A DNA stretch of 64,000 nt. Origin: Terrimonas ginsenosidimutans. GTDB lineage: Bacteria > Bacteroidota > Bacteroidia > Chitinophagales > Chitinophagaceae. The translations under genes were made by a program, and so were the position numbers. This document shows positions 11,885-53,688 of this stretch, piece after piece. The first letter of the stretch is position 1, and every line of letters starts with the position of its first letter. The notes beneath the pieces were generated by a model. That model ran no database searches. It had not been told where the DNA came from and worked only from the letters and a program-made list of their open reading frames with translations. The stretch is from assembly GCF_022012415.1 (NCBI RefSeq), contig NZ_JAKLTR010000002.1, positions 248,001 through 312,000 of the forward strand. The letters are read 5' to 3'.

Positions 11885-11908
11885 AATGACTCCCGCGAAT
11901 GAGTGGTA

Positions 11909-22877: not shown

Positions 22878-22949
22878 GGATTGCTTGTATACTAAAAGAC
22901 TGCTTGGTTAAGGCATTTCCTCTGCCCGAACTAGCGAGTTTCAAGACGC

Positions 22950-24587: not shown

Positions 24588-24603
24588 CTTTTCAGGTTTG
24601 TTG

Positions 24604-27699: not shown

Positions 27700-28402
27700 A
27701 GATTGGGGGTTTAAATATTTAAGGCAATGTGTAACCTGATCCTGCAATAATCGGATCAGCAGTCTTTAAGTATTTGCGGTATTGAACCGCCATTAATGGA
27801 AATTGATCTGTGTTAGTCGGGATCCATTTTGGATAGAACGGACAGATCGCGAATAAGGGAAGGCATTGATTTTTTCATACGCAGCAGTATTAAGTGAATA
27901 ATCTGGGCGGCAGAAATTAAGTGAGGAGCCGCCGGCATCGTTATATATAAACTTACCCTGCTGCACGGGAGATGGTCTCCGATTTCTGGTTGAATACCTT
28001 CAAAAATTGGTGAACAGTTTTTTGAAGATTGATAATCAATGTAATTACTGGGAGGTGACCTGCATTTTCTGTGCTGAAGGCAACAGTGGCCGCTGCCATT
28101 CTCGCCTTATGCCGCGGCGGAGAAGGAATCTTCCCGCGTTTAAGATCGCTTAAAGGAAGCCGCAAGACAGCTTTGACAACGAAGAGACATGGTAGAGAGT
28201 ATGCAGAGAAGATGGTTGGACTGTAGGTGCCGGGTAAAAGGTTTGTACAGTATTGGTACACTTACCGGCCGTTTTACCGGGGAAATTGTAGCGTATCGGT
28301 ACACTATTTTTCAAAGTGACTCGTCCAAAATAGCTATACAGGTTAATTGTTAGCCATGCTTGTGGTTGTACAGAATTGCCCGGAGTGATCCGGGCAATTC
28401 TG
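27700..28402. other. 703-bp intergenic leader region upstream of the SusC gene
   Basis: No convincing gene. A 102-codon minus frame (27953-28261) has no family features. The region should hold the promoter of the SusC-SusD-GH95 unit, but I find no clear minus-strand TAnnTTTG. It contains a direct repeat with internal symmetry at 28245-28304, annotated separately, and AT-rich sequence near 27700-27950. Confidence 0.45.
28245..28304. repeat. Operator-like direct repeat, period 43 bp
   Basis: GTACAGTATTGGTACAC (28245-28261) and GTAGCGTATCGGTACAC (28288-28304) match at 14 of 17 positions. Each has GTA...GGTAC character, and the period is close to four helical turns. TTACCGG also repeats between them (28262-28268 and 28274-28280). 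This could be a binding site for a dimeric regulator such as the HTCS, about 550 bp before the SusC start. Confidence 0.3.
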
Positions 28403-30772: not shown

Positions 30773-30949
30773 GAATCTAAACTACGTTTTCCTTTGGAGA
30801 AAACATTATCGTCTTGTAAAGGAATTGGTGAAGCCGCAGCCTGGTACCTGGCTGCCCTGGGTTTTACCAGTGCTGAAATCCTGCGTGGAAGGCTTGCGAT
30901 CAGTAGCCTGGTGATGCCTGATCGGGCGGTAAAAAGTGAGATCGTTCTA

Positions 30950-31855
30950 TTAATTCCCTGTCAGTTTAAATTCCCTGAAGAAACGCCATATCTCCAACCG
31001 GGCATCAAAATCCTGACACACTTTACCCAGCAGACCTCCCTGTTTATCGGATCCGGGCCAGGTATGCCCTCCGCCTGTGATTTTGATAAGCTCTACACGG
31101 TGTCCATTGATGCCGCCTGAATAAACAATTCTTTCGGCCGTGCATTTATCGAGGGGCGTTGCATCTTCAATAGCGGTGACCTCCGGTTTGGTACTACAAT
31201 GGTTCTTATCCCGCCAGAATTGTAATATCGCTTCAATGCCGATAGCGGATGAGCTGCCTTTATATTTATTGATCGGATCTTTTGTACCATGGATGTGAAT
31301 GATGGGAATGGGGTTAACCGGTTCGCAATCTTTATACATACTGACAGACATACCACCAGCTACACCACCGACCGCAGCAAAGCGTTTGCTTTTGCATCCA
31401 AGATAATAAGCCATGAATGTTCCGTTCGACATACCCGTACAATAGACCCGCTGCTGATCAATGCTGAACCGTTTGGCCAGGGTGTCGATCAGCGCTTCCA
31501 GGAACCCCTGATCGTCTACAGTCGAACCCATTACGCTTCCAAAGTTCCAGAAACGCTGTTTGGTGAGTCGCTCTTTTGTTCCATCGGGGTGAACAACCAG
31601 GAAGCGTGCGGTATCTGCCACGGGTCTGAAATCGCGGTTTGATTCCTGGTATTCTTTATCTTTCCCATATCCATGCAGGTTGAAAAGTAAGGGCACAGGC
31701 TGCCCTGGAATATAGGAGGCCGGAACATAAACAGCGTAAGACCGGTTGATGCCGCCATGAACAAAGGAGCCTTCAACCGTTTGCTGCGCCGGAACTTCGC
31801 TTGATCTTACGAGGTATGCAATGATCAGCAACAGTTTGGAAATTCCATTCTTCAT
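30950..31855 (-). CDS. PHB-depolymerase/feruloyl-esterase-like alpha/beta hydrolase (LpqC type)
   Basis: Secreted esterase of 301 residues. The frame is open for 64 more codons upstream, but ATG 31855 opens a clear signal peptide (KNGISKLLLIIAYLVRSSEVPAQQ). Esterase_PHB fold: PLLFNLHGYGKD, the nucleophile elbow CTGMSNGTFMAYYLGC (S143), the acid IHIHGTKDPINKYKG and the base His in GGGHTWPG. Family members hydrolyse polyhydroxybutyrate, feruloyl or acetyl esters; near polysaccharide loci an acetyl- or feruloyl-esterase role on plant xylan is most plausible (inference). It sits 177 bp upstream of the S41 peptidase start on the same strand. Confidence 0.9.
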   Translation of the reverse strand: MKNGISKLLLIIAYLVRSSEVPAQQTVEGSFVHGGINRSYAVYVPASYIPGQPVPLLFNLHGYGKDKEYQESNRDFRPVADTARFLVVHPDGTKERLTKQRFWNFGSVMGSTVDDQGFLEALIDTLAKRFSIDQQRVYCTGMSNGTFMAYYLGCKSKRFAAVGGVAGGMSVSMYKDCEPVNPIPIIHIHGTKDPINKYKGSSSAIGIEAILQFWRDKNHCSTKPEVTAIEDATPLDKCTAERIVYSGGINGHRVELIKITGGGHTWPGSDKQGGLLGKVCQDFDARLEIWRFFREFKLTGN

Positions 31856-32008
31856 AGACCTAAAATACGATTTCAGAAGATTTATCGGAGGTATTGTTTC
31901 GGCATATTGTTGCTGTCGCTGCGGGGAGTGGAGTCGCGGATTTGGTGTAGTAGTTTTTCTACAAAAAAAATAGGGTGATAAACTACGGGCAATACAGACG
32001 TATCCCCT

Positions 32009-32016
32009 TAAATTTG
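32009..32016 (+). promoter_or_regulatory. Candidate -7 box (TAAATTTG) for the small gene at 32065
   Basis: Exact TAnnTTTG match 48 bases before the ATG at 32065, giving a leader of about 45 bases. No obvious -33 TTTG. It lies in the divergent gap between the esterase and the small gene, and supports the choice of ATG 32065 over the in-frame start at 31975. Confidence 0.35.
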
Positions 32017-32064
32017 ATATATGCATTTGCCGTAATTCATTTTTCACCGTTCAACATTTGCCGT

Positions 32065-35695: not shown

Positions 35696-37099
35696 TCAGT
35701 AAACACCTTCTAATTTCAGCACCCACGCATATCCTCCTGAAGGGAGGCTCGGGTGCAGGTTCAATCCTTCGATCGTGCACTTGCCGCCTTTGTATGAGTA
35801 ACTGATCTTCTTATTGCTGCCCAACAGGCTTACGCGTGAAGGAGACTTAGGAAGATCAAATTTAATAGCCTGTGCTTGTGCTGCGGTCAGGAACACGTAC
35901 AGGTCTTTTCCTTTCTGTGTGTAGGAGATTCCGTTGGATGCGGTCAACGAAGCAGCTGTTGTGCTGAAAATAGCCTCTCCGTTAATGTTCAGCCAGGCGC
36001 CTATATCTGCAAGCCGTTGCTGCATGATCACGGGAATGGTTCCGTCGGCAGCTGGTCCGATATCGAGCAGGAGATTTCCTCCCCGGGATACTTTCTGGAT
36101 CAGCATATGAATGAGCGCATCTGATGTTTCATAATCCCCGAGGTTTTCATTTCTATTGAAGCCAAATGATCCGCCAATGCCGCGGCATTCTTCCCAGGGA
36201 TGGTCAAACTTCTTTTTGGTAGCATCTTCGTTGTGAACGATATCGTACTCTGTAGTATAGTAGTCGCCGTGTTTGCCGCGCGTTTCCTTTCCCCAGCGGT
36301 CATTTACCACTACGGAATTTTTAACCGGGCTTTCGTTGTAAAGCCATGCAAGGAATTCAGGGCTTTTCCAGGTGGCGCTTGGATGTTCCCATTCGCCATC
36401 AGGCCATACTATATCAGGTTTGTACCGCGTTACCAGATCTTTTAACTGTGGCATCATATGTTCATCTACGTATTTGTTCACGTCGCTTTTGTACAGTGGA
36501 TTAAACCATTCATACAGGGAAAAGTAAAATCCCATGTGCAACCCTTTTTCTTTCACTGCGGTGGTAAGATCGCCGGCAAGATCACGATGCGGACCTACAT
36601 CTACCGAATTCCAGTTCCATGATTGATCGCTTGGCCATAGCGAAAACCCGTCATGGTGTTTGGAGGTCAGCACCACATACCTTGCTCCTGAATTCTTAAA
36701 GATCTCAGCCCATTGCTGCGGATCAAATAACTCCGCTTTGAACTGCGGTGCGAAATCCTGATACTTTGTATTGGGGCCGTATGCATTATTGTGATACTGG
36801 CGAAACGCCTTACCCACTTTTGAACTGTCCGTTACCAGGCGGTTCCAGTACCATTCGGAATACTTGGCATAGGTAGCATAATCTTTTCCGACAGGAGCCC
36901 ATGCGGGAACCGAATAAACGCCCCAGTGAATAAATATGCCGAATTTGGCATCATTGAACCATGCCGGAATGGGTCTTGTATCCAGCGATTTCCAATCGGC
37001 CGAATATTTCTGCTGTGCGGTTGCTTTCAGATGGCTTATTGCAAGCACGATGAAGATGATAAGGGTGGACCTTATTCCTGGATTTGTAGTACGTTTCAT
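35696..37099 (-). CDS. Alpha-L-fucosidase, glycoside hydrolase family 29
   Basis: Secreted enzyme of 467 residues from the ATG chosen; a TTG six codons upstream (37117) is unlikely. Signal peptide IFIVLAISHLKATAQQ. GH29 hallmarks: PAWFNDAKFGIFIHWGVYSVPAW, YVVLTSKHHDGFSLWPS, DLAGDLTTAVKEKGLHMGFYFS and the nucleophile Asp in DIVWPDGEW (D234). NVGPxxDG-like LLLDIGPAADGTIP follows, then a C-terminal beta-sandwich. It is a retaining exo-alpha-L-fucosidase; linkage is not predictable. It is the last gene of locus 2, starting 14 bp after the SGNH hydrolase stop, and gives the best clue that locus 2 handles fucosylated glycans. Confidence 0.95.
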   Translation of the reverse strand: MKRTTNPGIRSTLIIFIVLAISHLKATAQQKYSADWKSLDTRPIPAWFNDAKFGIFIHWGVYSVPAWAPVGKDYATYAKYSEWYWNRLVTDSSKVGKAFRQYHNNAYGPNTKYQDFAPQFKAELFDPQQWAEIFKNSGARYVVLTSKHHDGFSLWPSDQSWNWNSVDVGPHRDLAGDLTTAVKEKGLHMGFYFSLYEWFNPLYKSDVNKYVDEHMMPQLKDLVTRYKPDIVWPDGEWEHPSATWKSPEFLAWLYNESPVKNSVVVNDRWGKETRGKHGDYYTTEYDIVHNEDATKKKFDHPWEECRGIGGSFGFNRNENLGDYETSDALIHMLIQKVSRGGNLLLDIGPAADGTIPVIMQQRLADIGAWLNINGEAIFSTTAASLTASNGISYTQKGKDLYVFLTAAQAQAIKFDLPKSPSRVSLLGSNKKISYSYKGGKCTIEGLNLHPSLPSGGYAWVLKLEGVY

Positions 37100-37113
37100 A
37101 TGTGAATTGTTGT

Positions 37114-38385
37114 TCAATATAAGATAGCGCCAATATACATGGCTTTTCCTTCGTAGAGGCTCCAGTCTTTTACCACGGTGTTCCGTGTTTTCAGAATTGC
37201 AGCTTTGTCCACAGGTGTTGATGATAGTTTTACAGTTGCCGTATGTTTGCCCTTATGCAGACCGGAGATCAGGAAGTAGTTCAACCTGTAGTAAGTGCTG
37301 AAAGCATCGAACCTGGTGATGATGCGCGGTGGCTGATCGTCGATAGTGATTTCAATGGCAGAGGTTCCCGGCCCCATTATATCGGCCATTCCGAAGCGAC
37401 TCCCTTTAAAGCTGACTGTTAAGCTTGCGTCCGGGGATGCTGTCGACTGAACTTCTGGAAGCAGCGGAAAGTATTCCTTTCCTTTGGTCACAGAATCTGT
37501 GAATTGCCAGTTACCGTTGAATTTTATCTTTTTTGAAAGGTCATACATTCCGGCATTGCTCCAGTTGTTTGCCTCCATTGCAGCGGGCATTGAGTGCTTC
37601 TTCCGGGTGGAGTTGGTGTTCAATGCGGGAAGATTTTTTGCAAGTACTTCGGTATAGATCTTATGTCCGGTTTCGGGCAAGGGATGAACGCCGTCGATCG
37701 AAAACAGAGGGGCTGCATAGGTGGAGTCTCTTTTGCCAAGCATCAGCATTTTCCCTTTATTGATCTGGTCGATCACCGCCAGTCCCATGTGTATGCTGGG
37801 AATGGAGTAGTGGTCGGCTATTGCCTCCATGGCAGACACAGAGGAGGGGAACAGGCCTTTTTGTAAGGCTGGAAGATTTTCGTTTGAGAAGGTATAAATG
37901 AAACAGATATCTGTTTTGGGTTTTGCCTTCCTGATCTTACGTACGATTCCTTCCATTGTTTCCCTGACAAACTGCATGAGCATGCGGTTATCATTCACAG
38001 CAAACTCTACAAATACCAGATCGGGGTTATGGTCGATAACGTGTTGCTGAACGCGGCATGCACCAAAGTCCGAACCGGTACCACTAACTGCCGCCATGAT
38101 CTCTTCAAAGCCGGCGGATGGGTATTGTTTTTTCAGCCATGTCATTACCTGGTCGCGGTAACCATTTCCTGCCCTTGTAATGCTTCCTCCGAGGAATGCA
38201 ACCTTCACTGCTTTGCCTGTGTTTACCCGGGCAAAGAAATGAGGCAGCCCGTTTCTTATGGTCAGCTCTTTTGCTGCAAGCAGGGAATCTGCCTGTGCGT
38301 TTGCCACGATGGTCATACCGGTAAAAAGGATGACCAACAGGAGTGATAGTGGGAGTAGTTTTTTTATTGGTCTTGTTAAAAACAT
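37114..38385 (-). CDS. Secreted SGNH/GDSL hydrolase with C-terminal beta domain (putative carbohydrate esterase)
   Basis: Protein of 423 residues with signal peptide (LLVILFTGMTIVANAQA). The SGNH fold has block I VAFLGGSIT (S68, likely nucleophile), SGTGSDFGAC, FAVNDNRM (N131) and the catalytic dyad DGVHP (D231, H234). About 150 further residues (270-423) form a beta-rich domain (LTVSFKGSRFGMADIM, IEITIDDQPPRIITRF) resembling the accessory domain of some carbohydrate esterases. Probable role: removing acetyl groups from the target glycan (inference). Only two bases separate it from the other SGNH hydrolase upstream. Confidence 0.88.
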   Translation of the reverse strand: MFLTRPIKKLLPLSLLLVILFTGMTIVANAQADSLLAAKELTIRNGLPHFFARVNTGKAVKVAFLGGSITRAGNGYRDQVMTWLKKQYPSAGFEEIMAAVSGTGSDFGACRVQQHVIDHNPDLVFVEFAVNDNRMLMQFVRETMEGIVRKIRKAKPKTDICFIYTFSNENLPALQKGLFPSSVSAMEAIADHYSIPSIHMGLAVIDQINKGKMLMLGKRDSTYAAPLFSIDGVHPLPETGHKIYTEVLAKNLPALNTNSTRKKHSMPAAMEANNWSNAGMYDLSKKIKFNGNWQFTDSVTKGKEYFPLLPEVQSTASPDASLTVSFKGSRFGMADIMGPGTSAIEITIDDQPPRIITRFDAFSTYYRLNYFLISGLHKGKHTATVKLSSTPVDKAAILKTRNTVVKDWSLYEGKAMYIGAILY

Positions 38386-38387
38386 GC

Positions 38388-39101
38388 TCAGGGTTTAGTC
38401 TTTAAGAATTTGTTGATTGCGGCATACCATTTTGCGGCGATCATATTTGCTCCGGCGCGATTTGGGTGCACTTTGTCATGAATGGTATACGTGTTCCAAT
38501 CCCATTGATCCTGCTGATCAACGAATATTACTGAAGGGTCATTCATTTCTTTTACCATGGAATGAATGGCGGTGTTCAGAGCCGGGATGTATTCATACTT
38601 GGGTAGTTTGCCGGCCGTGATCACTGCGGCAACAAAAATGACTGCGGCCGGTTTTTTTTCTTTGATGGTTTGAATGATCTTTTTCTGCGCATTGATGATT
38701 CCATTGACCGGTGCTTCTTCTATGAAATGATTATGCCCCGAATGAAGCAATATGAGATCGGCAGGGAAAGAAGTGTATACACTGTCGATGATCTTTGCGA
38801 GATACTCTGCTGTTTTTCCACTGAAGCCTGAGTGATACAGCGTGTCTCCTTGTTGTACAGACCTGCGTGGTCCAATGAAGCGGATTTTATGATCCGATCG
38901 GGAAAGCATTGAATCAAGCGGAAACAGATAGGAAAAGAATTCCGGGCCTCCTTCTGTGATGGAGTCCCCAAGACCCAGCAGGGTGAGCTCTTTATCTTTG
39001 GAAAGCTTTTTTCCCGGGGAACATGCCTGCAGGGTGAGTGCGATCAAAACGATGCAGCAGGTTCTTATTGATATAGTCAAAATGGTTCTGTTCATTTGCA
39101 T
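38388..39101 (-). CDS. SGNH/GDSL hydrolase lipoprotein
   Basis: Lipoprotein of 237 residues; signal with LIALTLQACSPG (C27). Block I LGLGDSITEGG (S47), block III LLHSGHNHF (N124), and the dyad IHDKVHPNRAG (D209, H212). It is shorter than the neighbouring esterase and lacks an accessory domain. The start ATG overlaps the upstream stop as TGATG, so it is translationally coupled to the 981-residue protein. Family members are lipases or acetylesterases; in this setting a glycan acetylesterase is likely (inference). Confidence 0.9.
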   Translation of the reverse strand: MQMNRTILTISIRTCCIVLIALTLQACSPGKKLSKDKELTLLGLGDSITEGGPEFFSYLFPLDSMLSRSDHKIRFIGPRRSVQQGDTLYHSGFSGKTAEYLAKIIDSVYTSFPADLILLHSGHNHFIEEAPVNGIINAQKKIIQTIKEKKPAAVIFVAAVITAGKLPKYEYIPALNTAIHSMVKEMNDPSVIFVDQQDQWDWNTYTIHDKVHPNRAGANMIAAKWYAAINKFLKTKP

Positions 39102-42046
39102 CAGTCGTTGATCGTTTGTACTGGAAAACTGATCCTGCTGCCATCTGTTCTAACGGCATTTATTTCAAAGGAAATTTTGTCTTTAACAGCCGGTAAGATC
39201 AGGTCAAACTCAAAAGGGTAGGTATTGTCTTCTATTGTCAGCCATTCCTTGCTGTCGTTTAGCCTATATCTCAGGTTGCATTTTGTCCATTCCTTCTCCG
39301 TTTTATTGCAATAAGCATAAAACTTAGCCAGTCGATCGGTGGGTTGAATGATCATCGCTGTGGTTGCTGCTGTACTGTCTTCGTTTGCTTTGATACGCAC
39401 AAAACGGTTGCTGTTTGATCCGGTGATCCGTTGTGTTTGTTTTACGTCTTTTCGCTCCTGATAAATGTCTTTGATCCTGATACAGGTAAACCCTCCGGCA
39501 GGTAATGTTATGGATAGTTCTCCGTTTTTTAATATAGCCTTTCTGCTTGTGCCGTTTTCTTTGTACTCTATAATACTGTAGGGGCGTCCTGCAGACCAGC
39601 CAATGACATCCCTGTTCAGCCTGATTTTTTCTGTGGTAATCTTCTTTGCAGTATTGGTAAAGGCAATAAATATGTCTTTGTCACTATGGCCCATTATGTG
39701 ATTGAAGGCTGTTCCGTCTGATTGCAATGCATGAGTGGGCATCCAGAGTTGAATGCTGTCGTTACCCATCATGCTTCCTTTTTTTGCACCGTATACATTG
39801 CTGGTGAGAAAGGCATATCCGGGGGCATAGGTGGCCGGGAAGTTGATCTTTCCTTTCGAGCGGAAAAAGAAATCGGATACAAGAAAGTCCATCAGCAGCG
39901 TAAGATGTGGCCACAGGTGGTTATAGAAGATGGCATTATATTTCACGTCATGGAAAGGGTGCAATGGATAGTCGAAGCGTTGATACACGTCTGTATGAAG
40001 GGAGGTGAAATAGTAACCAGGGAAATTTGCATACCGGCCGACGATCGCATTATAGGCAGCGTTACGCAATAATGTATCATTGGAATGATAGGCAAGACGC
40101 AGCAGCCAGGCTGCGTGATGTGCGAGCATGACAGGTCCGAATGCGTAGGTATTGGGTGCTTCCGGTACGAGACCGTTCAGGGAGGTCTGCCAGGCTGGGA
40201 CAGTCATTTCGGGTACATAGCTTGTTTCATTCATTGGTGCGAATGGAGAACCTTCAATAGCGCTCACTCGTCGTCCCGGGAAGATCCCCTTTACTTCACC
40301 GTCTTTGTTGATGGTGATGTTGCCGGGTGGGGGAGACGGATTGCTTCTTGTCCAAAGCAACAATTGTTTGGCTCCCGTTAGGGCAGCCTTCAGAAATGTT
40401 TCATTATTGGTCTCCTGGTAAAGTTCATACAGATCGTAGATGCGATATCCGTAATCCGTAGTGAAGCCAGCTCCTTTGTCCCTTAATCCCGGAGAATCGA
40501 AAAATGTGGACGAATAACGCTGGTAAACCTGCTTCAGATAGTCGTTAGCTCCATCTATCGCTTTCCGCAGATCGTCTTTTCTTTTGTACATCCTGTATCG
40601 CGCCAGATAGTCCTGCCAGCTTCCTCCGCCGGTTTCAGTATTCATGTTCAGTTGCCTGCTTTTCCCGAAGAGCCTGTCGGCTTCAATGGAAAATGCAGGA
40701 GTCTGTCCTTTGGTCAGTTCATTCAGGCCAACCAGTTCTCCTATATCCACGCAGGGGCCGTTCAGCAAGTGTGAAGGCACCTGTGCCTGGTGCGCAGAGT
40801 CGCTGGTTGAATAAAGAAACTTTTCCCTGCTCATCACATATTCGATCATCGGCAAGGCTCTTCTCTGCATGATCTCATCACTGCCGGTGATCATTGCGAT
40901 ACTAAGCGGATGCAAGGCGGAAACGTTTTTTACCGTGCCCGGAACATCAAACTGATAATCGGATGCTTTCAGCTCTTTATTCCAGCCACTGTAAACGTCA
41001 TTCATTGCAAAGTCCAGCATATTGTCCAGCGTTCCGTTCAATGAAACTTTATTATTCTCACGTTCATTTCTGTATCTGAATATAGAAGACAACAGGAAGG
41101 AAGTGCCTTGTTCCCAATTGCCGGGATACAGCAAATAAACGAGAGAGAGCTTGTAATGATCGCCGGGACGCATCATCGATTTCTCCGTACCGGGTAAAGG
41201 GGAGAAAACGGTTGCCTGTGCTTTGCCCTGCGGGTTCCTGATCGCCATTCCGAACAGGCTGTTCCCTTTCGGGCCGTCTGCGGGGAATACGGACCAGAAC
41301 TTATTATCAGCCTTGCCTGCATTATTCCATTGTGCGGCGAGTGCGTAGCGGTAGGGTATATCATCAATTGAAACAGCAAGCCCTTCGCTATAGCCATGAT
41401 GGTTGGTAAATACGGCAGCGGTGTTGGCATACGCTTCTTCCGTTAAACCAAAGCGACTGGGGAATCTTTTCCAGCTCCATGTCAATGGCTGGTATACAAA
41501 GTCAAGCGCTGAAGAGTCTACTGATGGCATACCTGTAAATCCAATGGAATAATGTCCCTGCCGGGCGGCAGTCAAACCCATTTCAAATAATGGTGCCTGT
41601 TGCGATGGATCGAATTTTACGGTCAGGGATACTTCTCCTTCCGGTTGCTTGCCAAAGCTGAATAAAAGCTCGTTGTTCTTTTGTTGAACGGCAGTCGCCT
41701 TTAATGTGGTACTGCCCAGTTCACCGATGTCCTGAATCAATCCTTTGGAGGTGTTCCAGGCAACTACGCCGGGCTGGCCGTCCATGGCCACTCCACGCAA
41801 AGCCGGATGATCTGTTGTAAAAACAAGTTGCAATTGCGGTACTATTTTCCTGCTAATACCACTTGCTTTATGCGTGATGTTAAAGGAAAAGTCTTTTTGC
41901 CCGCCGGCGCTGATGGATACGGTATAATAGCTGTTCCGGATCATTTGCGCCCCACCATTAACACTGAAAATGGTCAGTATTATCCAGCAGGATATTCCTT
42001 TTATAATATTTTCCCTTTTACCCTTAGAGAGTACTGAATACTTCAT
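39101..42046 (-). CDS. Large secreted protein of unknown function, possible (alpha/alpha)-barrel glycan-active enzyme
   Basis: Protein of 981 residues with signal peptide (IILTIFSVNGGAQ, cleaved near 34). The order by eye is a beta-sandwich-like N-terminal part (about 35-320), a helix-rich middle (about 330-740) with repeated aromatic/acidic helices (SWQDYLARYRMYKRKDDL, YGYRIYDLYELYQETNN, MLAHHAAWLLRLAYHSND), and beta-rich C-terminal domains. This layout resembles six-hairpin glycosidases or polysaccharide lyases, but I do not recognise a family signature or certain catalytic residues. It sits between a glycosidase and two esterases in one transcription unit, so a role in glycan breakdown is a reasonable inference. 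Confidence 0.75.
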   Translation of the reverse strand: MKYSVLSKGKRENIIKGISCWIILTIFSVNGGAQMIRNSYYTVSISAGGQKDFSFNITHKASGISRKIVPQLQLVFTTDHPALRGVAMDGQPGVVAWNTSKGLIQDIGELGSTTLKATAVQQKNNELLFSFGKQPEGEVSLTVKFDPSQQAPLFEMGLTAARQGHYSIGFTGMPSVDSSALDFVYQPLTWSWKRFPSRFGLTEEAYANTAAVFTNHHGYSEGLAVSIDDIPYRYALAAQWNNAGKADNKFWSVFPADGPKGNSLFGMAIRNPQGKAQATVFSPLPGTEKSMMRPGDHYKLSLVYLLYPGNWEQGTSFLLSSIFRYRNERENNKVSLNGTLDNMLDFAMNDVYSGWNKELKASDYQFDVPGTVKNVSALHPLSIAMITGSDEIMQRRALPMIEYVMSREKFLYSTSDSAHQAQVPSHLLNGPCVDIGELVGLNELTKGQTPAFSIEADRLFGKSRQLNMNTETGGGSWQDYLARYRMYKRKDDLRKAIDGANDYLKQVYQRYSSTFFDSPGLRDKGAGFTTDYGYRIYDLYELYQETNNETFLKAALTGAKQLLLWTRSNPSPPPGNITINKDGEVKGIFPGRRVSAIEGSPFAPMNETSYVPEMTVPAWQTSLNGLVPEAPNTYAFGPVMLAHHAAWLLRLAYHSNDTLLRNAAYNAIVGRYANFPGYYFTSLHTDVYQRFDYPLHPFHDVKYNAIFYNHLWPHLTLLMDFLVSDFFFRSKGKINFPATYAPGYAFLTSNVYGAKKGSMMGNDSIQLWMPTHALQSDGTAFNHIMGHSDKDIFIAFTNTAKKITTEKIRLNRDVIGWSAGRPYSIIEYKENGTSRKAILKNGELSITLPAGGFTCIRIKDIYQERKDVKQTQRITGSNSNRFVRIKANEDSTAATTAMIIQPTDRLAKFYAYCNKTEKEWTKCNLRYRLNDSKEWLTIEDNTYPFEFDLILPAVKDKISFEINAVRTDGSRISFPVQTIND

Positions 42047-42115: not shown

Positions 42116-44503
42116 TTATTCAACGGGTTCTATTTCTATCAGGCGCATTCCGTAGGCGTCAAGATCAGCCCTGAAGTTGAAACTGCTTTTCCCTGAAGCT
42201 GCGATGGTTGTTTGCCTGCCGATCGTGTTCAGTATATTGATCTCTTCTTTTGTAAAGTTCTTTTCATACCTGTCAGCGCCACGGGTCAGCGGAAGGGTCT
42301 GGTATTTATCCTGCGAGAGGATCCTGGCGACAGCGGAATCTTCCGGCGTGCTGTACCATTGCGTGATCTTCAGTTTTGTATTTCTGAATGATGACGGAAG
42401 ATCTTTCAGGATGATATCTATATCGCGGTAGTTCAATGGCCTTGCTGCGCTATAGAAGATCGAAGGAGAAGTGCAGTAGATCAGTATGCTGATCTTTTTA
42501 TCTTCTTTTGTAACGATGGAATGCAATCCGTAGCCATGGTTGTCAACTGGTGTTGCCGATGACGGGATCTTCCGATCGCCCAGTTTATTCCGGAGCAATA
42601 ATCCTTTTGCATATGTTGACAACACATTCTGCTTCCCATAAGTTAACAAGGCAAAATGCCATCCGGCACCGCTTACCGGGAGATATTGTCCATGTTCGCG
42701 CTCGTAGTATTCATGAAGGGCGGTCGTGAAAGAAGCCATTGCGGCTTCCTTTTTCATGGCGCCCTGCAGGTCGCTCAGGTCTTCTATGGTGGAAGGCTCC
42801 GCGAGACCCATTTCATCAACCAGTACGGGGATATCGGGATCAAGTCCGTTCTTTTTTAAGATAGTTTGCAGGCTGTCAGTGAATCCTTTTACCATAGATG
42901 GATAATTTCCTGGAAAAAGATAAGTGTGCCACGCAATATAATCGAGGCGTTTTAATGGTGATGCATCTTTGCTGTATCTTGAAAGAAAGCCATTGATAAA
43001 TTCCCAGCGGCTGTTAGGATTATTACTGCCAAGACCGGCTACTTTGAGCTTTTCCGTGGAAGGCTGCGTTTTGTTGAACTCACCCACTGCTTCGTACAAA
43101 CATTTAAAGAAACTGTAGTGCGCATCTGCATGTACGGAAGTGTTGGTAATATTGTCCAGCTCATAAGGCATTTGAACGATCTTAAGCGACGGGCAGATCT
43201 TTTTGGCAAATCGAAGTGTTGTCAGGTATCCCTGCCTGATGCGATCCCATTCCGCGCCCGGTGTGCCGGTTGGAGGTAATGCCAGTTGGCCCATCCTGCT
43301 GTATTGCTTATACATCTTTACAATGGGAGTGATCTGCAGGTCGAGCACAACAGTGTCTGCATACATGCCGGCAGCTTCGAGCCATTGTGTCAGGTAAGGA
43401 AGTTGGGTTGAGTCGAGCTCTGCGGGGTTGTCTATTTTCCAGGGAAGGTAGTGGTGTTGATAGCGGAATAAGGAGAATTTCTTTCCCAGGGCATTCGTTA
43501 CCGATTGTGCCATCTCTTTGATCTGTGATGTGGGCTTTCCATATTGAAAGTCTTTCACGGGGTTGCCGGAATAAGCCATCACGCGAAGTTCACCTCTGTC
43601 CCGCTTTTCTGGTTTGCCGGAGAGCGATACTTCTATCGTTCCTTTCGTCATTAATTTATTGGCGATCTGTGCTGTATTCAGATTCCACTGGCGAAGCCGG
43701 TCATCGTGCTGCGCCATGATCGCGGAAGCAGAATCTGCGGGTATATTGAATTGTGCGGCCAGTAGATAGGGGTCTTCTTTTGAAAGGTCTTTGTATACAG
43801 AACCGATCAGCATGCCTGACTCAACATCCATGTGTTTGGTATTGGAGCTGAATACAAACGATTGCCGGGCTCCATAGGACAGCATTTGGGGGTATACGCG
43901 GATATGCATCAGTCCTGACACAGATACAATTGGTTTTTTTCCTGCGGGACTTGTGATCTTCAGTGCAATGAAATTGACCTTGAATAAACCACCGGTAAAG
44001 GTAGTTTGTTGTTGAGGCCGGAGTTTGCACACGATCGTTTCTTCTTCTTTTCCTTTTACTCCCAAAGAGAAAGCGAGGCTTTCTTCCGAACCGATCGTAT
44101 ACATAAATGGAATGATGAACGAAACCGGCGTTCCGGCAGCAGAATAGGGAATGAGCTCACTGGTGCATTTGATCTCGCGGGCATAAGGTGAACCTCCTCT
44201 GAAAAGCAATTGAACGCCGTGTATGGTGGTATTATCCCAGGTTTTGTAACCATGCGACCATAAGGTTCCGTCATACCAGCCAAATGTTCCGCGTGCAGCA
44301 TCTTCCTGAGCGGTGGGAGAGTCTTGCGGGAAGGGATATTCGCTATAACCGAAACGCCATTTGAAAGTGATCTCCTGGTCGCCGCGGAGGTAGACAGGTG
44401 CTGGACCCTGCGCTGCTCCTTCTATCGTGAATAAAAGCAAAAGGAGGCCGGATATATACCGGAATAAAAGGAAACAGTTCTTATGATTGCTCATGCTCAT
44501 CAT
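42116..44503 (-). CDS. Secreted glycoside hydrolase-like protein, clan GH-A barrel (family unassigned)
   Basis: Protein of 795 residues; signal peptide LLLLFTIEGAAQ. About 35-300 look beta-rich (accessory domain). About 310-640 look like a TIM barrel: acid/base candidate E448 in KIVQMPYELDN at the end of a strand, RLDYIAWHTYLFPGN, and nucleophile candidate E564 in VLVDEMGLAEPS, a spacing typical of clan GH-A (GH39- or GH30-like). A beta-sandwich (about 650-795) ends the protein, as in GH39/GH51-like enzymes. The exact family and sugar are not clear. It starts 4 bp after the symporter stop. Confidence 0.7.
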   Translation of the reverse strand: MMSMSNHKNCFLLFRYISGLLLLLFTIEGAAQGPAPVYLRGDQEITFKWRFGYSEYPFPQDSPTAQEDAARGTFGWYDGTLWSHGYKTWDNTTIHGVQLLFRGGSPYAREIKCTSELIPYSAAGTPVSFIIPFMYTIGSEESLAFSLGVKGKEEETIVCKLRPQQQTTFTGGLFKVNFIALKITSPAGKKPIVSVSGLMHIRVYPQMLSYGARQSFVFSSNTKHMDVESGMLIGSVYKDLSKEDPYLLAAQFNIPADSASAIMAQHDDRLRQWNLNTAQIANKLMTKGTIEVSLSGKPEKRDRGELRVMAYSGNPVKDFQYGKPTSQIKEMAQSVTNALGKKFSLFRYQHHYLPWKIDNPAELDSTQLPYLTQWLEAAGMYADTVVLDLQITPIVKMYKQYSRMGQLALPPTGTPGAEWDRIRQGYLTTLRFAKKICPSLKIVQMPYELDNITNTSVHADAHYSFFKCLYEAVGEFNKTQPSTEKLKVAGLGSNNPNSRWEFINGFLSRYSKDASPLKRLDYIAWHTYLFPGNYPSMVKGFTDSLQTILKKNGLDPDIPVLVDEMGLAEPSTIEDLSDLQGAMKKEAAMASFTTALHEYYEREHGQYLPVSGAGWHFALLTYGKQNVLSTYAKGLLLRNKLGDRKIPSSATPVDNHGYGLHSIVTKEDKKISILIYCTSPSIFYSAARPLNYRDIDIILKDLPSSFRNTKLKITQWYSTPEDSAVARILSQDKYQTLPLTRGADRYEKNFTKEEINILNTIGRQTTIAASGKSSFNFRADLDAYGMRLIEIEPVE

Positions 44504-44507: not shown

Positions 44508-46193
44508 TTAAAGATGGTTGTTTTCCGGCAGTGTTTGTACGCTCACCGATGCTTCGGTATATTTTTTTACCAGCACAATGGCAGCGATCAGTGTGATCAG
44601 AAGGCCGATGGTTACCGCTACTGCCCCGTTATCCGCGATGAAGCCGAGGATGGAGATCCCTAACCCGACAGCAAGTGTGCTCCATGCGATCACCTGGATG
44701 CCAAAGCGGTTTTGCCTGATCGCTTCGGGATCGCGGCTCACCAGCAATTGTTCGCCACTTGCCTGCATGAACGGAATGTCTTTCTTTTGGAAAAATGCAT
44801 ACACTTCGTATGCTATCAGCAGCAATAACGGAAAGCCGACACCAACAACCGTTTCCATTGTTCTCGATAAGGTAATGCCTAATGCTGCTTTTCCAAATAC
44901 TTTAAAGAACAGGCTAACGATCAAAGAGACAGCGGAGATCGTAATAAGCGAGGTAGCTGTTTGCCTTCGGGAAAATAAGGAATAGATCACCGGGGCGAAT
45001 AAGCTTCCGCCGGCAATTGCGGCCGTGCTTAATACTACTTCTACAATTCCGCCTGCGGCAGGAACAAGAATCGCCAGGTAGACCGTACCGGCGCCAAAGA
45101 GCACGGTGAACAATCTTGCTACCAGGATCATCCGTTTGTCAGATGTGTTTTTGAAAAATACGTCTTTATAGATATCCTGTGCAAAAATGATCGCTGCTGT
45201 ATTGATGGTAGTATTTGCTTTGCTTGCGGTAGCTGCGATCATACCGGAAAGTACAATGCCGATCAATCCTGCAGGTAATACTTTCTGGCAAAGCATCATG
45301 TAAGCACCTTCTGCACTCGCTCCGTCCAAACCGGGATTGATCACGCGGTAGATCATCGGAGGCAGCATCCAGATGATGGGTGCAATCAGATAAAGTCCGG
45401 CAAAAAGATAGGCGACCTTCTTTGCGTTCCGTGTAGAAGAAACGGATGTATAACGCTGCACATAGCTCCAGTTCCCCGCGATGTATACCACCTGGTACAC
45501 AAAGAAAGAGATCATAAAACCGATGCTGTATTCACTGTTCACAGGCTCAAAGAAACGTGGAGGTGCTTTTTCAAGAAAGCTTGACATGCCGCCAACTTCT
45601 GCCAGTGAAAGTGGGATAATGATGATCACGGCTGCAGACAGGATCACGAACTGTACCACGTCTGTTGCCAGCACGCCCCAGAGGCCACCGCCGGTTGTGT
45701 AAATGATGATGGTGATACCTATGACGATGATGCATGCTTCCAGTGAAAATGGCGTGGCGACATAGACGATCTTCCCGACGGCGTATAATACGGCGGCGGT
45801 GCTGACAAGGCTGTACAGCAGGATCATGTAGCTATAGTATTGTTTCGCGGTCCTGCCGAATCGTTTGCCCAGGTATTCTGCGGCTGTAGTGGCTCCGGTT
45901 TTCTTCCATCTTGCGGCGATGAAGAGTGCGGTGACGAGTCCGCTCAGGCACATCGTGAACTGTATCGCGTTTGCTACCAGTCCATATCTGTAAGCGATCG
46001 ATCCCCAGACGACAAAGGTGGCTGCGGAGAAATAGGAAATGAAAAGTGAAAGACCATTGATCCACCAGGGAGTGGCGCCGCCTGCTTCAAAGAACGACTT
46101 GGAGCTTTTACTGCTTTGTACAGTAAACACCAGCCCGATGACGACCATCAGGATGGCAAATACACTCATTACGACAAAATCGAGGTTGCTCAT
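44508..46193 (-). CDS. Sodium:solute symporter (SSS family), likely sugar uptake
   Basis: Inner-membrane transporter of 561 residues; a GTG five codons upstream (46208) is less likely than the ATG used here. About 13-14 hydrophobic helices. SSS-type features include a short periplasmic N-terminus, FFEAGGATPWWINGLSLFISYFSAATFVVWG in helices 1-2, TTAAEYLGKRFG and SGMIAATASKANTTINTAAIIFAQDIYK. Family knowledge: it couples sodium entry to uptake of sugars, sialic acid or similar solutes. In locus 2 it is the only inner-membrane importer and should carry the released mono- or disaccharide. Confidence 0.93.
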   Translation of the reverse strand: MSNLDFVVMSVFAILMVVIGLVFTVQSSKSSKSFFEAGGATPWWINGLSLFISYFSAATFVVWGSIAYRYGLVANAIQFTMCLSGLVTALFIAARWKKTGATTAAEYLGKRFGRTAKQYYSYMILLYSLVSTAAVLYAVGKIVYVATPFSLEACIIVIGITIIIYTTGGGLWGVLATDVVQFVILSAAVIIIIPLSLAEVGGMSSFLEKAPPRFFEPVNSEYSIGFMISFFVYQVVYIAGNWSYVQRYTSVSSTRNAKKVAYLFAGLYLIAPIIWMLPPMIYRVINPGLDGASAEGAYMMLCQKVLPAGLIGIVLSGMIAATASKANTTINTAAIIFAQDIYKDVFFKNTSDKRMILVARLFTVLFGAGTVYLAILVPAAGGIVEVVLSTAAIAGGSLFAPVIYSLFSRRQTATSLITISAVSLIVSLFFKVFGKAALGITLSRTMETVVGVGFPLLLLIAYEVYAFFQKKDIPFMQASGEQLLVSRDPEAIRQNRFGIQVIAWSTLAVGLGISILGFIADNGAVAVTIGLLITLIAAIVLVKKYTEASVSVQTLPENNHL

Positions 46194-46226
46194 AGTTTTA
46201 ACAGGCACGCCGGTTGGTTAGCGGAG

Positions 46227-46307: not shown

Positions 46308-48578
46308 TCAGTAACATCTGACTTCAAAAACAGCGGCAGGAATGTTATCTGCCGGGTGCTCACATTTTATCAATAGTGTGTCCGTAACCAACGGTGTTCG
46401 CAGTGTAATGGTGTTCCGGGATTGGTAGTTACCCGTAACACTTTCCACAAGGTTTCCCTGACCATCATAAATGTAATAATTCCTGATGCAAAAGGGCATT
46501 ACACTTTCAGGATGATGCATTAGCACCGATTCCATCGGATGATCAAAGTCCGTATCAAAACTGAGTTGAATGGATCGAATAGTGATCGCCTGATCCCACT
46601 TAATAATAAGTGAAGGGTGCGGGTCAGCAAGACTGCCCGCCCACGCGTTGGGTGACAGGTAAGGGCGTGCATATCCATTGTTGACATTTGAGGCGGAATA
46701 GATATGCAAAGGCCTGGAAAAACTCATTGCGAGATTTTGTCCTTCAGGGCGACGCTTTGGCGTCCAGAATTCGAAGGTATCAATGCCGATATCTTCCGGC
46801 GGTGTTTGTACACCTGTATTGGAAACAGCTTTGTTTTCCGCCTGGAATAAGGAAAGCAGGCCTGTCAACCTGGCGTTGGAGAGATAGGCTGCTACTGCCG
46901 GGTTCTTTCTTAATACCACAAATACATACTGCTGTTCGGGGATCTCTGTGTCAAAATGTAATTCGACGCAGTTCCTCCCTTTTTCCAGTTTGATCTTTTT
47001 TTCTTCAAGGATCTGGTCCGGAGTGAAGCTGGAGGTACGGCTTGAAATTGCGAGATGGATAGTGACGGTTGTTTCTTCTTCCGCCTGCAAATGGAAGCGG
47101 ATCGCGGGTAATTTCCCGGCATCTGCGGGCAGGAGCTGAGCGATACCGGTTTCCATCGGGTAGATTTCTCCGTTTTCGGGAAGCGACAGTAAGGAGAATT
47201 CGCTTGTTGCTTTTGCTTTTCCGTTGCGGGCGAGATCAGCTTCATCGCCATTGGTAATACCTGGAATGAACTGCCCGCTTTTCAGCAGGCGTTGCTGCAG
47301 TTCCCGGATATGATCAAGCACGTTGGCGGGAAGGATCTTCCGTTCATGGGCGATCACCGCTGCCATCGCAACCGCCTGCGCGCTATTGGCAGAAGTGCCC
47401 ATGACCCGGGTGGAACCGTAGGCAACGTGCGTGGCGCTGATCGTTCGCCCTGCAAGGAAAAGGTTGGAAATATTCCTGCTATATAAACTACGATAAGGTA
47501 TATGGTAAATCCCTTTGCTGTGCCATTGATTGCAGCCCGGTAGTTCGCTGAATACGCCGTCGGCAGGGTGAAGGTCTATAGACCAGCCTCCGAAGGAAAC
47601 TGCATCATCATATTGTACCTGTTCTACGATGTCCTGTTGCCTGAGCATGTAATCACCTTCAAAGCGGCGGCTTTCGCGTTTGCCGGGAATGGTGCCAACC
47701 CATTCAAGCGTGTAAGTTTCTGCTTCGGGAAAATTGCCGGAGTTCTTGATATAATTCCAAACGCCATATACCACTTTCCACAGTTCCCATTTGATCTGCT
47801 CCGTTGCTTTAATTGTGTCCAGCCGGCCTCCATACTCGATCCACCAAAGCTTACAACCCTGGTCTTTCAGGCTGAAGGTTTTGTAGCGGGGAACTTTCCT
47901 GATATCATCCAGCGCGTAAGCGGGAGGAATGAACCGCACCGGCTTACCCGTATCTTTCGAATAAAAATAAATACTGTGTCCAAGCAATTCACCGTATTCT
48001 TTTGAAGGAGCGAATTTTTCGCCGAATTCATCCCTTGATTCAGCGCCCATTCTGAATGCAGCGCCGGCCAGAAATGCGACCACTCCATCGCCGGACGCAT
48101 CGCAGAAATAAGGAGCTTCAAAAATGTATGTTGTCTGATTCTGACTGCAAAAGCCGGTGGCAGCAGATATTGTATCGTCGTCTTTTTTTGATACTTCATA
48201 CACTGCTGTATTCAGGAACAGCCGGATGTTTTCTTCCTTTATTACTTTTTCCAGCATAATGGTGTCAAAGATCACCGGGTTTCCTTCTGGATTGCGGTAG
48301 GTATTTTCCACAAGCAATTCATCGATCAGTCCGCCCTCGCGTGACCAACGATTATTATTGCCCATATGAGAAGTGGCGCCGAGTATCCAAAGGCGTACTT
48401 CGCTTGATGCATTGCCGCCGAGCACGGGCCTGTCCTGCACCAATACCACGTTCAGACCTTCTCTTGCGGCTGTGATGGCGCTGCATACGCCACTAACGCC
48501 TCCTCCAACAATAACAAGGTCTGCATTTACTTTTTCACTGAAAAGACTCCTGGCATTTCCGCCTTCATTCACTATCAT
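46308..48578 (-). CDS. FAD-dependent oxidoreductase with discoidin-like C-terminal domain
   Basis: Protein of 756 residues without signal peptide or membrane helix, so apparently cytoplasmic. The N-terminal FAD-binding Rossmann motif VIVGGGVSGVCSAITAAREG (GGGVSG 25-30) and VLGGNASSEVRLWILGATS mark the FAD_oxidored (PF12831) family; FCDASGDGVVAFLAGA and NLFLAGRTISATHVAYGSTRVMGT complete the FAD fold by about residue 415. The second half is beta-rich, ending in a domain (about 620-756) that looks like a discoidin/F5-8-type-C fold (LIIKWDQAITIRSIQLSFDTD, IRNYYIYDGQGNLVES). It probably oxidises an imported sugar or sugar acid (inference); the substrate is unknown. Confidence 0.88.
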   Translation of the reverse strand: MIVNEGGNARSLFSEKVNADLVIVGGGVSGVCSAITAAREGLNVVLVQDRPVLGGNASSEVRLWILGATSHMGNNNRWSREGGLIDELLVENTYRNPEGNPVIFDTIMLEKVIKEENIRLFLNTAVYEVSKKDDDTISAATGFCSQNQTTYIFEAPYFCDASGDGVVAFLAGAAFRMGAESRDEFGEKFAPSKEYGELLGHSIYFYSKDTGKPVRFIPPAYALDDIRKVPRYKTFSLKDQGCKLWWIEYGGRLDTIKATEQIKWELWKVVYGVWNYIKNSGNFPEAETYTLEWVGTIPGKRESRRFEGDYMLRQQDIVEQVQYDDAVSFGGWSIDLHPADGVFSELPGCNQWHSKGIYHIPYRSLYSRNISNLFLAGRTISATHVAYGSTRVMGTSANSAQAVAMAAVIAHERKILPANVLDHIRELQQRLLKSGQFIPGITNGDEADLARNGKAKATSEFSLLSLPENGEIYPMETGIAQLLPADAGKLPAIRFHLQAEEETTVTIHLAISSRTSSFTPDQILEEKKIKLEKGRNCVELHFDTEIPEQQYVFVVLRKNPAVAAYLSNARLTGLLSLFQAENKAVSNTGVQTPPEDIGIDTFEFWTPKRRPEGQNLAMSFSRPLHIYSASNVNNGYARPYLSPNAWAGSLADPHPSLIIKWDQAITIRSIQLSFDTDFDHPMESVLMHHPESVMPFCIRNYYIYDGQGNLVESVTGNYQSRNTITLRTPLVTDTLLIKCEHPADNIPAAVFEVRCY

Positions 48579-48740: not shown

Positions 48741-50228
48741 TTATTTCCAGTCAGGGTTCTGTTCGATCATCGGGTTTGCAATGATCTCGATCTGTGGAAT
48801 AGGGTAATATTTATGTTTGGGTTGTGGTGTTCTGACAGGATAATCTGCGTTTATCGCAGTAGGGATCACCGTCATGAATGTGTTTGTCCTCGTCAGATCA
48901 TACCAGCGGTCGCCTTCTCCATAGAATTCCCAAGAGCGTTCCCTTAATACTGAATCGATAAAAGCTGGTTGGGAGAGACCGGCAGTGAGGTCAGGGATCT
49001 CTGCACGTCTTCTTACAGCATTGATATAACCGTATGCGGCAGTCGTGGCACCACTTTTACGAGCTTCGGCTTCTGCGGCAATCAGGTATGCATCTGCGTA
49101 GCGGAGCAGGTAAAGATTGTTGCTTGCATACGCACCAACAGAATTGGGGTCTTTTAGTTTAGCCATGATCACGAGGTCTTTTGTAGCCAAACGTGTATCA
49201 ATGTTCGCCTGTGTCACTGTTGCACCAGACCCATTGATATAGCTTGTTTGCATCAATGCTTTTCTTTTATCCTGGTTGAAGAACGAGTTATAGAATTTGC
49301 TGAAAACATACATCCCGCCAGCGCCGCCCTTATTCAGATCGGAAATGCCGAGTGGTGCGTAGAAATAGTGAACCTGTGACTGACGGATCGGGTTAGAGGT
49401 ATTGTTCAGTTCAACGGCAAACATTACTTCCGTACGCGCGAGGTCTTTTTTTGCCACGGTAAACAGGTCTATCGCCGAAGGAACAAGTGTACATTTTCCG
49501 GAACTGATCACCGCCTGCGCTGTGGCTAATGCTTCGTCCCATCTTTCATTATACAGTGCTGCCTTTGCATGCAGGATTTGTGCGCTTTGCTTGCATACAC
49601 GGCCCTTGACCAGCGATGATGAATAGTCGGGAAGCATTTTTTCTGCTTCACGGAGATCGGTCAGGATCTGATCATATACTTCATTGATCGGTTTTTTGCC
49701 AACGAATGCGGCGTCGATGGAATTGGTCGCCGTTGTTTTAACAACGATGCTTCCAAAGTTCTTGGCGAGCATCCAGTGAAAGAATGCCCGGAGAAAGAGT
49801 GCTTCGCCAACGATCGCGTTACGTCTTTCAGTATCCATGTTCACACCTGGAACCTTTTGGATCACCCAGTTTGCGCTTTCGATTCCCTGGTAAGCGCGCT
49901 TCCAGATCTCCAGGGGGGATTCATTTGCGCGGCTGAAACTTGTTTGTACGGAATAGGGAGGATCATAAGTATAAGTGGTGATCGAGTTTCTTCCTACCAC
50001 GTTCCTTGGAAAGATCTGATCGGCTGCCCAGTCTGACGCGAAGAGTGGCGCAGCACTGCTGTACATTACATACAGGTTACCATAGACCGCAGTGATCGCT
50101 GCTTCAGCTTCTGCTGCGCTTGAATAAAAGTCCTGCGTATAGATGGACGAATAGGCCGTTTCTTTCAATGCCTTTTTACAGCTGGTGAAAGCGACCAGGA
50201 ATATGCTGATATATATAAGCCTTTTCAT
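48741..50228 (-). CDS. RagB/SusD-family glycan-binding lipoprotein (locus 2)
   Basis: Outer-membrane lipoprotein of 495 residues. The frame is open 40 codons further upstream into the SusC gene, but the ATG at 50228 starts the lipoprotein signal IYISIFLVAFTSCKKAL (C17). SusD features: FYSSAAEAEAAITAVYGNLY, ALFLRAFFHWMLAKNFGSI, RYADAYLIAAEAEARKSG and the C-terminal SVLRERSWEFYGEGDRWYDLTR block. It starts 10 bp after the SusC stop. Partner of that porin in surface glycan binding; the ligand is unknown. Confidence 0.96.
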   Translation of the reverse strand: MKRLIYISIFLVAFTSCKKALKETAYSSIYTQDFYSSAAEAEAAITAVYGNLYVMYSSAAPLFASDWAADQIFPRNVVGRNSITTYTYDPPYSVQTSFSRANESPLEIWKRAYQGIESANWVIQKVPGVNMDTERRNAIVGEALFLRAFFHWMLAKNFGSIVVKTTATNSIDAAFVGKKPINEVYDQILTDLREAEKMLPDYSSSLVKGRVCKQSAQILHAKAALYNERWDEALATAQAVISSGKCTLVPSAIDLFTVAKKDLARTEVMFAVELNNTSNPIRQSQVHYFYAPLGISDLNKGGAGGMYVFSKFYNSFFNQDKRKALMQTSYINGSGATVTQANIDTRLATKDLVIMAKLKDPNSVGAYASNNLYLLRYADAYLIAAEAEARKSGATTAAYGYINAVRRRAEIPDLTAGLSQPAFIDSVLRERSWEFYGEGDRWYDLTRTNTFMTVIPTAINADYPVRTPQPKHKYYPIPQIEIIANPMIEQNPDWK

Positions 50229-50238
50229 AAAATGCATT

Positions 50239-53385: not shown

Positions 53386-53688
53386 CAATCGTTAAACTAA
53401 TAGAGTTTGGCTGCGGTGAACTTTTATGCAAGCAGGTGTAATTTACAGTGGATAATCATTCCGGGTACGTGCCTCGGAAAGAGGAAGTATCGGGAACGAT
53501 TTCGGGACCGTTCCCGATAGAGAGGGAGGATCGCAAAGAACGCAAGGAGGCGGGAAAGGCGCAAAGAATTTCAGTCCCTCGCGTCCGTGGCAGTGCTTTG
53601 CGTTCTTTGCGATACTCCTACGCCAGTCGCTCAGAAATTTTCATTATTTTCCGCGTGGATTATGCAACTCCGGATCCGATAAAACGTA
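53386..53688. promoter_or_regulatory. Divergent intergenic region, SusC operon / LacI regulator
   Basis: About 300 bp that should hold both divergent promoters and the operator of the LacI-type regulator. The only clear structure is repeat copy C. No perfect TAnnTTTG was seen on either strand. A palindrome-like word ATCGGGAACG...CGTTCCCGAT is visible (about 53488-53518: CGGGAACGATTTCGGGACCGTTCCCG), an attractive operator candidate for a dimeric LacI protein. Confidence 0.45.
53530..53628. repeat. Inverted repeat of the GCAAAG/ACTCCTACGC family (copy C)
   Basis: The 16-bp arms ATCGCAAAGAACGCAA (53530-53545) and TTGCGTTCTTTGCGAT (53598-53613) are perfect reverse complements with a 52-bp spacer, followed by ACTCCTACGCCAG as in copy B at 20159-20281. 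It lies in the divergent gap between the SusC and LacI genes and could interfere with or mark their promoters. Confidence 0.8.

Follow-up and report, generated by a model that had tools for sequence, protein, structure and literature searches.

What does a large protein do when no family model recognizes it, and when the genes around it resemble those of glycan breakdown? This question is raised by the gene at positions 39101-42046 of a 64,000-nucleotide stretch of Terrimonas ginsenosidimutans DNA (contig NZ_JAKLTR010000002.1, positions 248,001 to 312,000; hereafter the window). Its minus-strand frame encodes a 981-amino acid (aa) protein (P0001, F981), for which Pfam and NCBIfam returned no family at E ≤ 0.1. 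This agrees with an earlier note on the DNA, made from the sequence alone, that saw no recognizable family. We propose, with a probability of about 0.5, that it acts in the periplasm as a glycoside hydrolase belonging to a new (alpha/alpha)6 family and that it works, together with esterases, on a glycan that is O-acylated and probably contains fucose. It appears to have the helical barrel of several sugar-cutting enzymes and lies in sugar-degradation clusters, which makes a new kind of enzyme for cleaving glycans probable.

The coordinates in the earlier note were exact, and the strand is minus; the plus-strand reading contains many stops. The TGATG overlap that it described is real: base 39101 both ends the stop codon TGA (39103-39101) and begins the ATG (39101-39099) of a GDSL esterase gene, an arrangement that may couple translation of the two. 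A signal peptide, also claimed, is plausible by eye, with a basic start, a hydrophobic segment at about residues 17-30 and an end at ...GGAQ, and Q34 is invariant across the 19 rows of the 981/950 alignment introduced below. However, it went unflagged in a simple hydropathy scan (mean 1.6 over 19 residues). The proposed beta/helix/beta layout does appear in a full-length AlphaFold model, where DSSP assigned strands to residues 35-170 and 265-303, helices to 315-784 and strands to 792-979, but the confidence of that model is poor. The parts of the gene are as follows.

39101-42046, minus strand: predicted secreted protein of 981 aa, the subject of this analysis (reading frame and orthologs)
41945-42046, minus strand: putative signal peptide, residues 1-34, ending GGAQ (by eye; invariance of Q34)
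41102-41944, minus strand: beta-rich N-terminal region, residues ~35-315 (DSSP of the low-confidence model)
39692-41101, minus strand: helix-rich, probable toroid region, residues ~316-785, boundaries approximate (DSSP of the low-confidence model and profile matches)
39104-39691, minus strand: beta-rich C-terminal region, residues ~786-981 (DSSP of the low-confidence model)
40160-40162, minus strand: codon of E629, invariant in 35 of 35 rows and in A7 (see below)
39917-39919, minus strand: codon of H710, invariant in 35 of 35 rows and in A7
39887-39889, minus strand: codon of D720, invariant in 35 of 35 rows and in A7

The protein is not an orphan. We searched 294 genomes of its family (match at E ≤ 1e-5, with at most two candidates scored per genome, so that the copies counted are a lower bound) and found matches in 24. 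These are the window's own genome, two genomes with near full-length orthologs (69% and 65% identity) and 21 others with relatives of ~950 aa (30-34%), of ~1150 aa (27-30%) or, in a single genome (G006), only a partial match. Another near full-length ortholog (67%) lies on a contig of a metagenome-assembled genome (MAG; locus L002), and the open reading frame (ORF) is thus more than a chance one. In a sample of 395 genomes of the phylum, family members included, four had a match; the two outside the family were both partial. A third, more distant group of ~870 aa occurs in the same loci as the 950 and 1150 groups. Its profile matched 10 of the 395 phylum genomes, three over most of its length and the rest weakly or partially. 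Profile comparison with hhalign joined the 981/950 alignment (A1, 19 rows) to the 1150 group (A5, 8 rows; probability 100, E = 9e-81) and to the 870 group (A4, 8 rows; probability 99.9, E = 3e-36). Judged by these profiles, the groups of 981, ~950, ~1150 and ~870 aa are one superfamily, represented below by a 34-row alignment (A7) and by a partly different, merged alignment of 35 rows. A tree of the 35 rows kept the four groups apart, with support of 92/96 for the 950 group; its program warned of long branches meeting, and we used it only for the distinctness of the groups. A plasmid search found no relative of the 981-aa protein and none of one 870-group protein, and viral contigs gave pattern matches but no relative.

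Which fold does the superfamily have? The A7 profile matched 19 distinct PDB sequences at E ≤ 1, the best being 4mu9 (E = 6.8e-6). Among them are GH76 mannanases, unsaturated glucuronyl hydrolases, YteR-like and six-hairpin glycosidases, LanC-like proteins and Lin0763, and we take all 19 to be (alpha/alpha) toroid proteins. The stretch that carries the match lies near residues 475-585 of the 981-aa protein. All nine PDB sequences matched by the 870-group profile were GH88-type or LanC-like (best E = 0.0051). At E ≤ 0.1, weak matches to PF07944 (GH127) were found in 15 of 19 members of the 981/950 alignment, four of eight of the 1150 group and six of eight of the 870 group, and weak matches to PF07470 (GH88) in seven of eight of the 870 group. 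Against sets of GH127 and GH88 proteins, respectively, hhalign probabilities were 64 and 60% for the 981/950 alignment, 30 and 66% for the 1150 group, 95 and 89% for the 870 group, and 85 and 91% for the merged alignment. These sets comprised 17 of 20 GH127 sequences (L076, L081 and L086 were dropped as weak or foreign, L081 being a member of the 981-aa superfamily) and 18 of 20 GH88 sequences (L095 and L107 were dropped for the same reasons). Eight control families gave 0.1-5.3% with the three group alignments, with one exception; the merged alignment gave 14% with the GDSL set, at its N-terminus, and otherwise at most 2.2%. The exception is 98.5% between the first 160 residues of the 1150 group and the set of flavin adenine dinucleotide (FAD) oxidoreductases; that set contains an enzyme from L052 with the same N-terminal module. 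The L052 protein (4231-6033) is itself probably a secreted PF12831 FAD oxidoreductase carrying the 1150-group N-terminal module. The (alpha/alpha)-barrel of the earlier note is therefore supported, as a toroid predicted for the whole superfamily, by the superfamily profile and the weak Pfam matches.

Is the protein then a member of one of these known families? The best superfamily-profile match, BT_3782 (4mu9), shares helical hairpins with the superfamily; we take it to be GH76-like, and its record is titled 'Glycoside hydrolase family 73'. GH76 alpha-1,6-mannanases are (alpha/alpha)6 toroids with a catalytic Asp-Asp pair. However, the match covers only about 100 residues, and neither A1 nor A7 has the invariant Asp-Asp that GH76 membership would call for. 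GH95 enzymes, one of which is encoded elsewhere in the window (PF22124), have a similar beta/(alpha/alpha)6/beta layout and a fucose-type locus in common with the 981-aa protein, but the protein has no Pfam match to the GH95 catalytic domain.

GH127 and GH88/GH105 come closer. The superfamily could be a new subfamily of such glycosidases that uses their known mechanisms, a reading that we regard as very unlikely. In its favor are the PF07944 matches (best among members, 1.2e-5), which fall in the hairpin region wherever the matched stretch was shown, one ~950-aa relative just above the Pfam GH127 cutoff (25.7 versus 24.9 bits) and the GH88 matches of the 870 group. The 981-aa protein itself has no PF07944 match at 0.1. 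GH127 beta-L-arabinofuranosidases catalyze with a Glu and three Cys at a Zn site. In our control set all 17 sequences have the three Cys, and the Glu two columns before the first Cys is conserved in at least 90%. By contrast, A1, A5 and the merged alignment are without a Cys column at 90%, and the 870 group has just one (8 of 8). With these cysteines absent, the 981-aa protein is not a GH127 enzyme by mechanism, and we rejected its membership on both counts, the missing Pfam match and the missing counterpart of the catalytic Cys. The unsaturated uronyl hydrolases of GH88/GH105 resemble the superfamily at hhalign probabilities of 60-91%, but PF07470 has no match in the 981-aa protein; the best in the 870 group is 4.3e-5, and the example shown lies below the cutoff. 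Superfamily proteins are also larger and beta-rich at both ends. Three Asp columns and one Glu column are conserved at 90% or more in the 18 GH88 controls, the hhalign matches being too short to place them, and within the GH88-like stretch none of the acidic residues is common to all 35 rows. Against established families, then, the profile searches gave no clear match for the 981-aa protein and one marginal GH127 relative in a group without the conserved Cys. The comparison covered our copies of Pfam and NCBIfam, with CAZy outside it; relative to these the family is supported as new, although the toroid fold itself is known, and the note's wording of a new or poorly described family holds on the Pfam and superfamily-profile evidence. 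Among the titles and abstract beginnings listed in literature searches, none described the protein or its gene set.

What could serve as its active site? Five residues, E629, D720, H710, R650 and Y678, are invariant in all 35 rows of the merged alignment, and the first four are also invariant in A7. Among the 35 rows no Glu other than E629 and no Asp other than D720 is invariant; these two are the most likely candidates for the acid and base of catalysis. The invariance of Glu, Asp, His and Arg across groups just 17-30% identical to the 981-aa protein argues against a noncatalytic glycan-binding or scaffold protein, as does the L002 ortholog, which shares a single ORF with two GDSL domains. 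The long beta regions of the low-confidence model would suit such a protein, and the active site is only a candidate; even so, we give this explanation the least credence of all.

The invariant His, Tyr and Arg beside Glu and Asp could also belong to a polysaccharide lyase, in which H710 and Y678 would act as base and acid in beta-elimination on a glycan containing uronic acid. A toroid joined to a beta-sandwich is known from lyases of the heparinase and PL8 kind, and two other loci with the FAD enzyme (L113, L116) encode, by Pfam, a major facilitator superfamily (MFS) transporter, which we take to resemble hexuronate transporters. Yet no lyase family appears among the Pfam matches of A1 (19 sequences) or A5 (8), the 870 group has a single Pec_lyase match (0.0022, one of eight), and no GH88/GH105 enzyme, the usual partner of lyases, was found among the operon ORFs given to Pfam. 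We therefore consider a lyase unlikely, though the most credible of the alternatives, and continue to favor a glycoside hydrolase.

Do the neighboring genes fit a glycoside hydrolase? Together with its neighbors from GH29 to SusC, all encoded on the minus strand, the gene forms an operon-like run, beyond which a LacI regulator is divergently oriented:

35696-37117, minus strand: GH29 alpha-L-fucosidase-like protein (Pfam and PDB match)
37114-38385, minus strand: second GDSL protein, 423 aa (Pfam)
38388-39101, minus strand: GDSL esterase, 237 aa, with its start codon in the TGATG overlap described above (Pfam)
42116-44503, minus strand: 795-aa protein (P0002) without a Pfam or NCBIfam family (searches of both)
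44508-46208, minus strand: SSF sodium:solute symporter (Pfam)
46308-48578, minus strand: FAD oxidoreductase, PF12831 (Pfam)
48741-50348, minus strand: SusD-like protein, ORF start set mechanically (Pfam)
50239-53388, minus strand: SusC-like TonB-dependent transporter (Pfam and NCBIfam)
53488-53519, no strand: inverted repeat between the LacI and SusC genes, a possible LacI-family operator
53689-54885, plus strand: LacI-family regulator, divergent from the SusC/SusD run (Pfam)

Gaps between genes from the symporter to GH29 are at most 69 bases each. Since one operon-like run joins an adjacent SusC/SusD pair to a regulator and to carbohydrate enzymes, the locus qualifies as a SusC/SusD polysaccharide utilization locus, and it shares SusC, SusD, glycoside hydrolases, esterases and a LacI regulator with other such loci. 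What differs is that a PF12831 FAD oxidoreductase gene lies near every superfamily gene counted and that an SSF symporter is present in most of the loci read. The glycan may carry a fucose-like residue, to judge from the GH29 protein, whose best PDB match (E = 2e-113) is a tissue alpha-L-fucosidase. Two enzymes of the operon, those of 981 and 795 aa, have no family, so the substrate cannot be read from annotation.

The same partners recur elsewhere. In all four loci with a member of the 981 group (the window, G077, G039 and L002), the gene is accompanied by both GDSLs, SSF, the FAD enzyme, SusC and SusD; the 795-aa gene and GH29 are each present in three. The two GDSLs form one ORF in G077 and G039. 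In the MAG locus L002, the 981-like protein and both GDSL domains are fused into one 1584-aa ORF, the strongest sign that the esterase and the toroid protein act on a common substrate. We searched the 294 family genomes for the FAD oxidoreductase (E ≤ 1e-100, at most three candidates scored per genome) and found it in 35, including all 24 with a superfamily match. For each of the 42 superfamily gene matches counted, the distance to an FAD gene is 61-11,335 bases (within 12 kb); of 45 match rows, three that are N-terminal pieces of genes already in the count were dropped, and G006, a partial match to an 870-group gene, was kept. Eleven genomes have the FAD gene without a match. Four of these carry an 870-group gene beside it, and the other seven have none within the stretch read, which in one case is a 5-kb contig. 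The FAD enzyme thus also occurs without this superfamily.

Taken as a pathway, these parts would work as follows. The 981-aa protein would be exported to the periplasm or cell surface and would consist of a six-hairpin (alpha/alpha) toroid between two beta regions, one at each terminus. SusC and SusD would import oligosaccharides, from which the adjacent GDSL esterases would remove acyl groups. After or together with deacylation, the toroid would cut a glycosidic bond in a pocket containing H710, R650 and Y678, where E629 and D720 would most likely be the acid and base, and GH29 would take off the L-fucose-like residue. The symporter would then import the product, and the FAD enzyme would act on it in the cytosol. 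Product uptake and oxidation are suggested by the symporter and by the lack of an export segment in the FAD enzyme, in which a hydropathy scan found no transmembrane or signal segment; this is a weak test, as the same scan missed the putative signal peptide of the 981-aa protein. The glycosidase or lyase activity put forward earlier fits both the locus and the invariant E629, D720 and H710. What the data show directly is the reading frame, the family, its genomic surroundings, the fusion and the invariant residues, with sequence profiles supporting the toroid; hydrolase activity itself, the catalytic roles, the order of the steps and the substrate are what we infer.

Several results weigh against this proposal. 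On its own, the 981-aa protein has no significant match in Pfam, NCBIfam or PDB, and its single phmmer match in PDB is at chance level (E = 0.17). Its A1 profile mixes PDB matches with noise, including a glutathione transferase (E = 0.037) and a lectin (E = 2), and the A5 profile has no PDB match. The toroid match spans only ~60-200 columns of generic helical hairpins. AlphaFold, run on the full protein and on residues 316-790 with one relative in each alignment, gave predicted local distance difference test (pLDDT) scores of 38 and 34 and predicted template modeling (pTM) scores of 0.28 and 0.35, respectively. In a Foldseek search of the core model, the first three matches were designed helical-repeat proteins at E > 0.1. 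The models are too poor to use, and the fold rests on sequence, through the profile search that found toroids. The hypergeometric value for co-occurrence with the FAD gene (4e-27) is overstated since the genomes are related and kinship is ignored. Finally, toroids include nonhydrolases such as LanC, epimerases and lyases, and six of eight 870-group members weakly match a C5-epimerase C-terminal domain (best E = 4.9e-4). With an epimerase and a mannose isomerase among the nonsignificant Foldseek matches of the core model, these would fit a toroid epimerase or other sugar-modifying enzyme, neither hydrolase nor lyase. No member of A1 or A5 has such a match, though, and a locus that combines three paralogs with GH97, GH2 and GH3 better fits successive cleavages; this explanation, like that of a GH127/GH88 subfamily, strikes us as very improbable.

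Full-length Foldseek matches at E ≤ 0.001 (a GH2 protein, two PTPRK chains and one Tie2 chain) were set aside, with TM-scores by query of 0.07-0.08. Single FN3 and CBM56 domains (E = 0.001-0.008, target TM-score 0.5-0.7) probably arise from a beta region of the low-confidence model, and we claim nothing from them.

Should the glycoside hydrolase proposal be true, a superfamily of enzymes that lacks annotation but has conserved candidate catalytic residues, a fixed set of partner genes and three paralogs in one recurring locus would become directly testable. It would also imply a route of glycan breakdown with a flavin step that is unnamed in the Pfam and NCBIfam copies compared. A bolder version, which we find improbable, would place the four groups in a new clan of their own: (alpha/alpha)6 enzymes that cleave glycans at a distinct Glu629/Asp720 site and serve a single undescribed, redox-assisted catabolic route. 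This route would comprise the esterase, the toroid enzymes, the sodium symporter and the PF12831 FAD oxidoreductase, which would oxidize the imported sugar or glycoside before the last bond is broken.

All three superfamily paralogs (870, 1150 and 950) occur together in 16 loci (L034-L037, L054, L121-L123, L126-L133). These loci also contain SusC/SusD, DUF5017, SSF, GDSL, GH97 and/or GH3, GH2 and the FAD oxidoreductase, with varying completeness. In three genomes of one genus, the SSF symporter and an 870-group protein form one ORF (L034:1528-5886, L035:14503-18795 and L123:1032-5321), and in L002 the symporter is joined to a 795-aa homolog (6028-9975). At the fusion junctions read (L002, L034 and L035), a signal-peptide-like segment of the enzyme is retained. 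Other FAD-oxidoreductase loci differ in content: L110 has a DHDPS-family aldolase and a sub-threshold BNR_2 protein, L111 and L117 have SASA esterases, and an MFS transporter was recognized by eye in L111. Together with the MFS loci L113 and L116, these perhaps point to a broader part for the flavoenzyme in sugar uptake pathways.

The 795-aa protein gave one sub-threshold PylD_N line (0.085) and otherwise no Pfam or NCBIfam match, and a PDB profile search returned a chance match only. It has matches in three of the 294 family genomes (its own included, one weak) and in L002. Its E448 (YELDN) and E564 (VDEMG) are invariant in four sequences and kept in a 25% relative (L057), and may form a clan GH-A-like acid/nucleophile pattern.

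The inverted repeat at 53488-53519, TATCGGGAACG...CGTTCCCGATA, is a putative LacI-family operator. Its core recurs in two of 133 loci, L055 (6089-6114) and L115 (16865-16890), where shuffles of the window lead one to expect none. The window also holds a second SusC/SusD locus at 20302-32047, with the GH95, an S41 peptidase and an esterase, and adjoining it a GH3 gene and two Reg_prop sensor kinases at 8023-17273.

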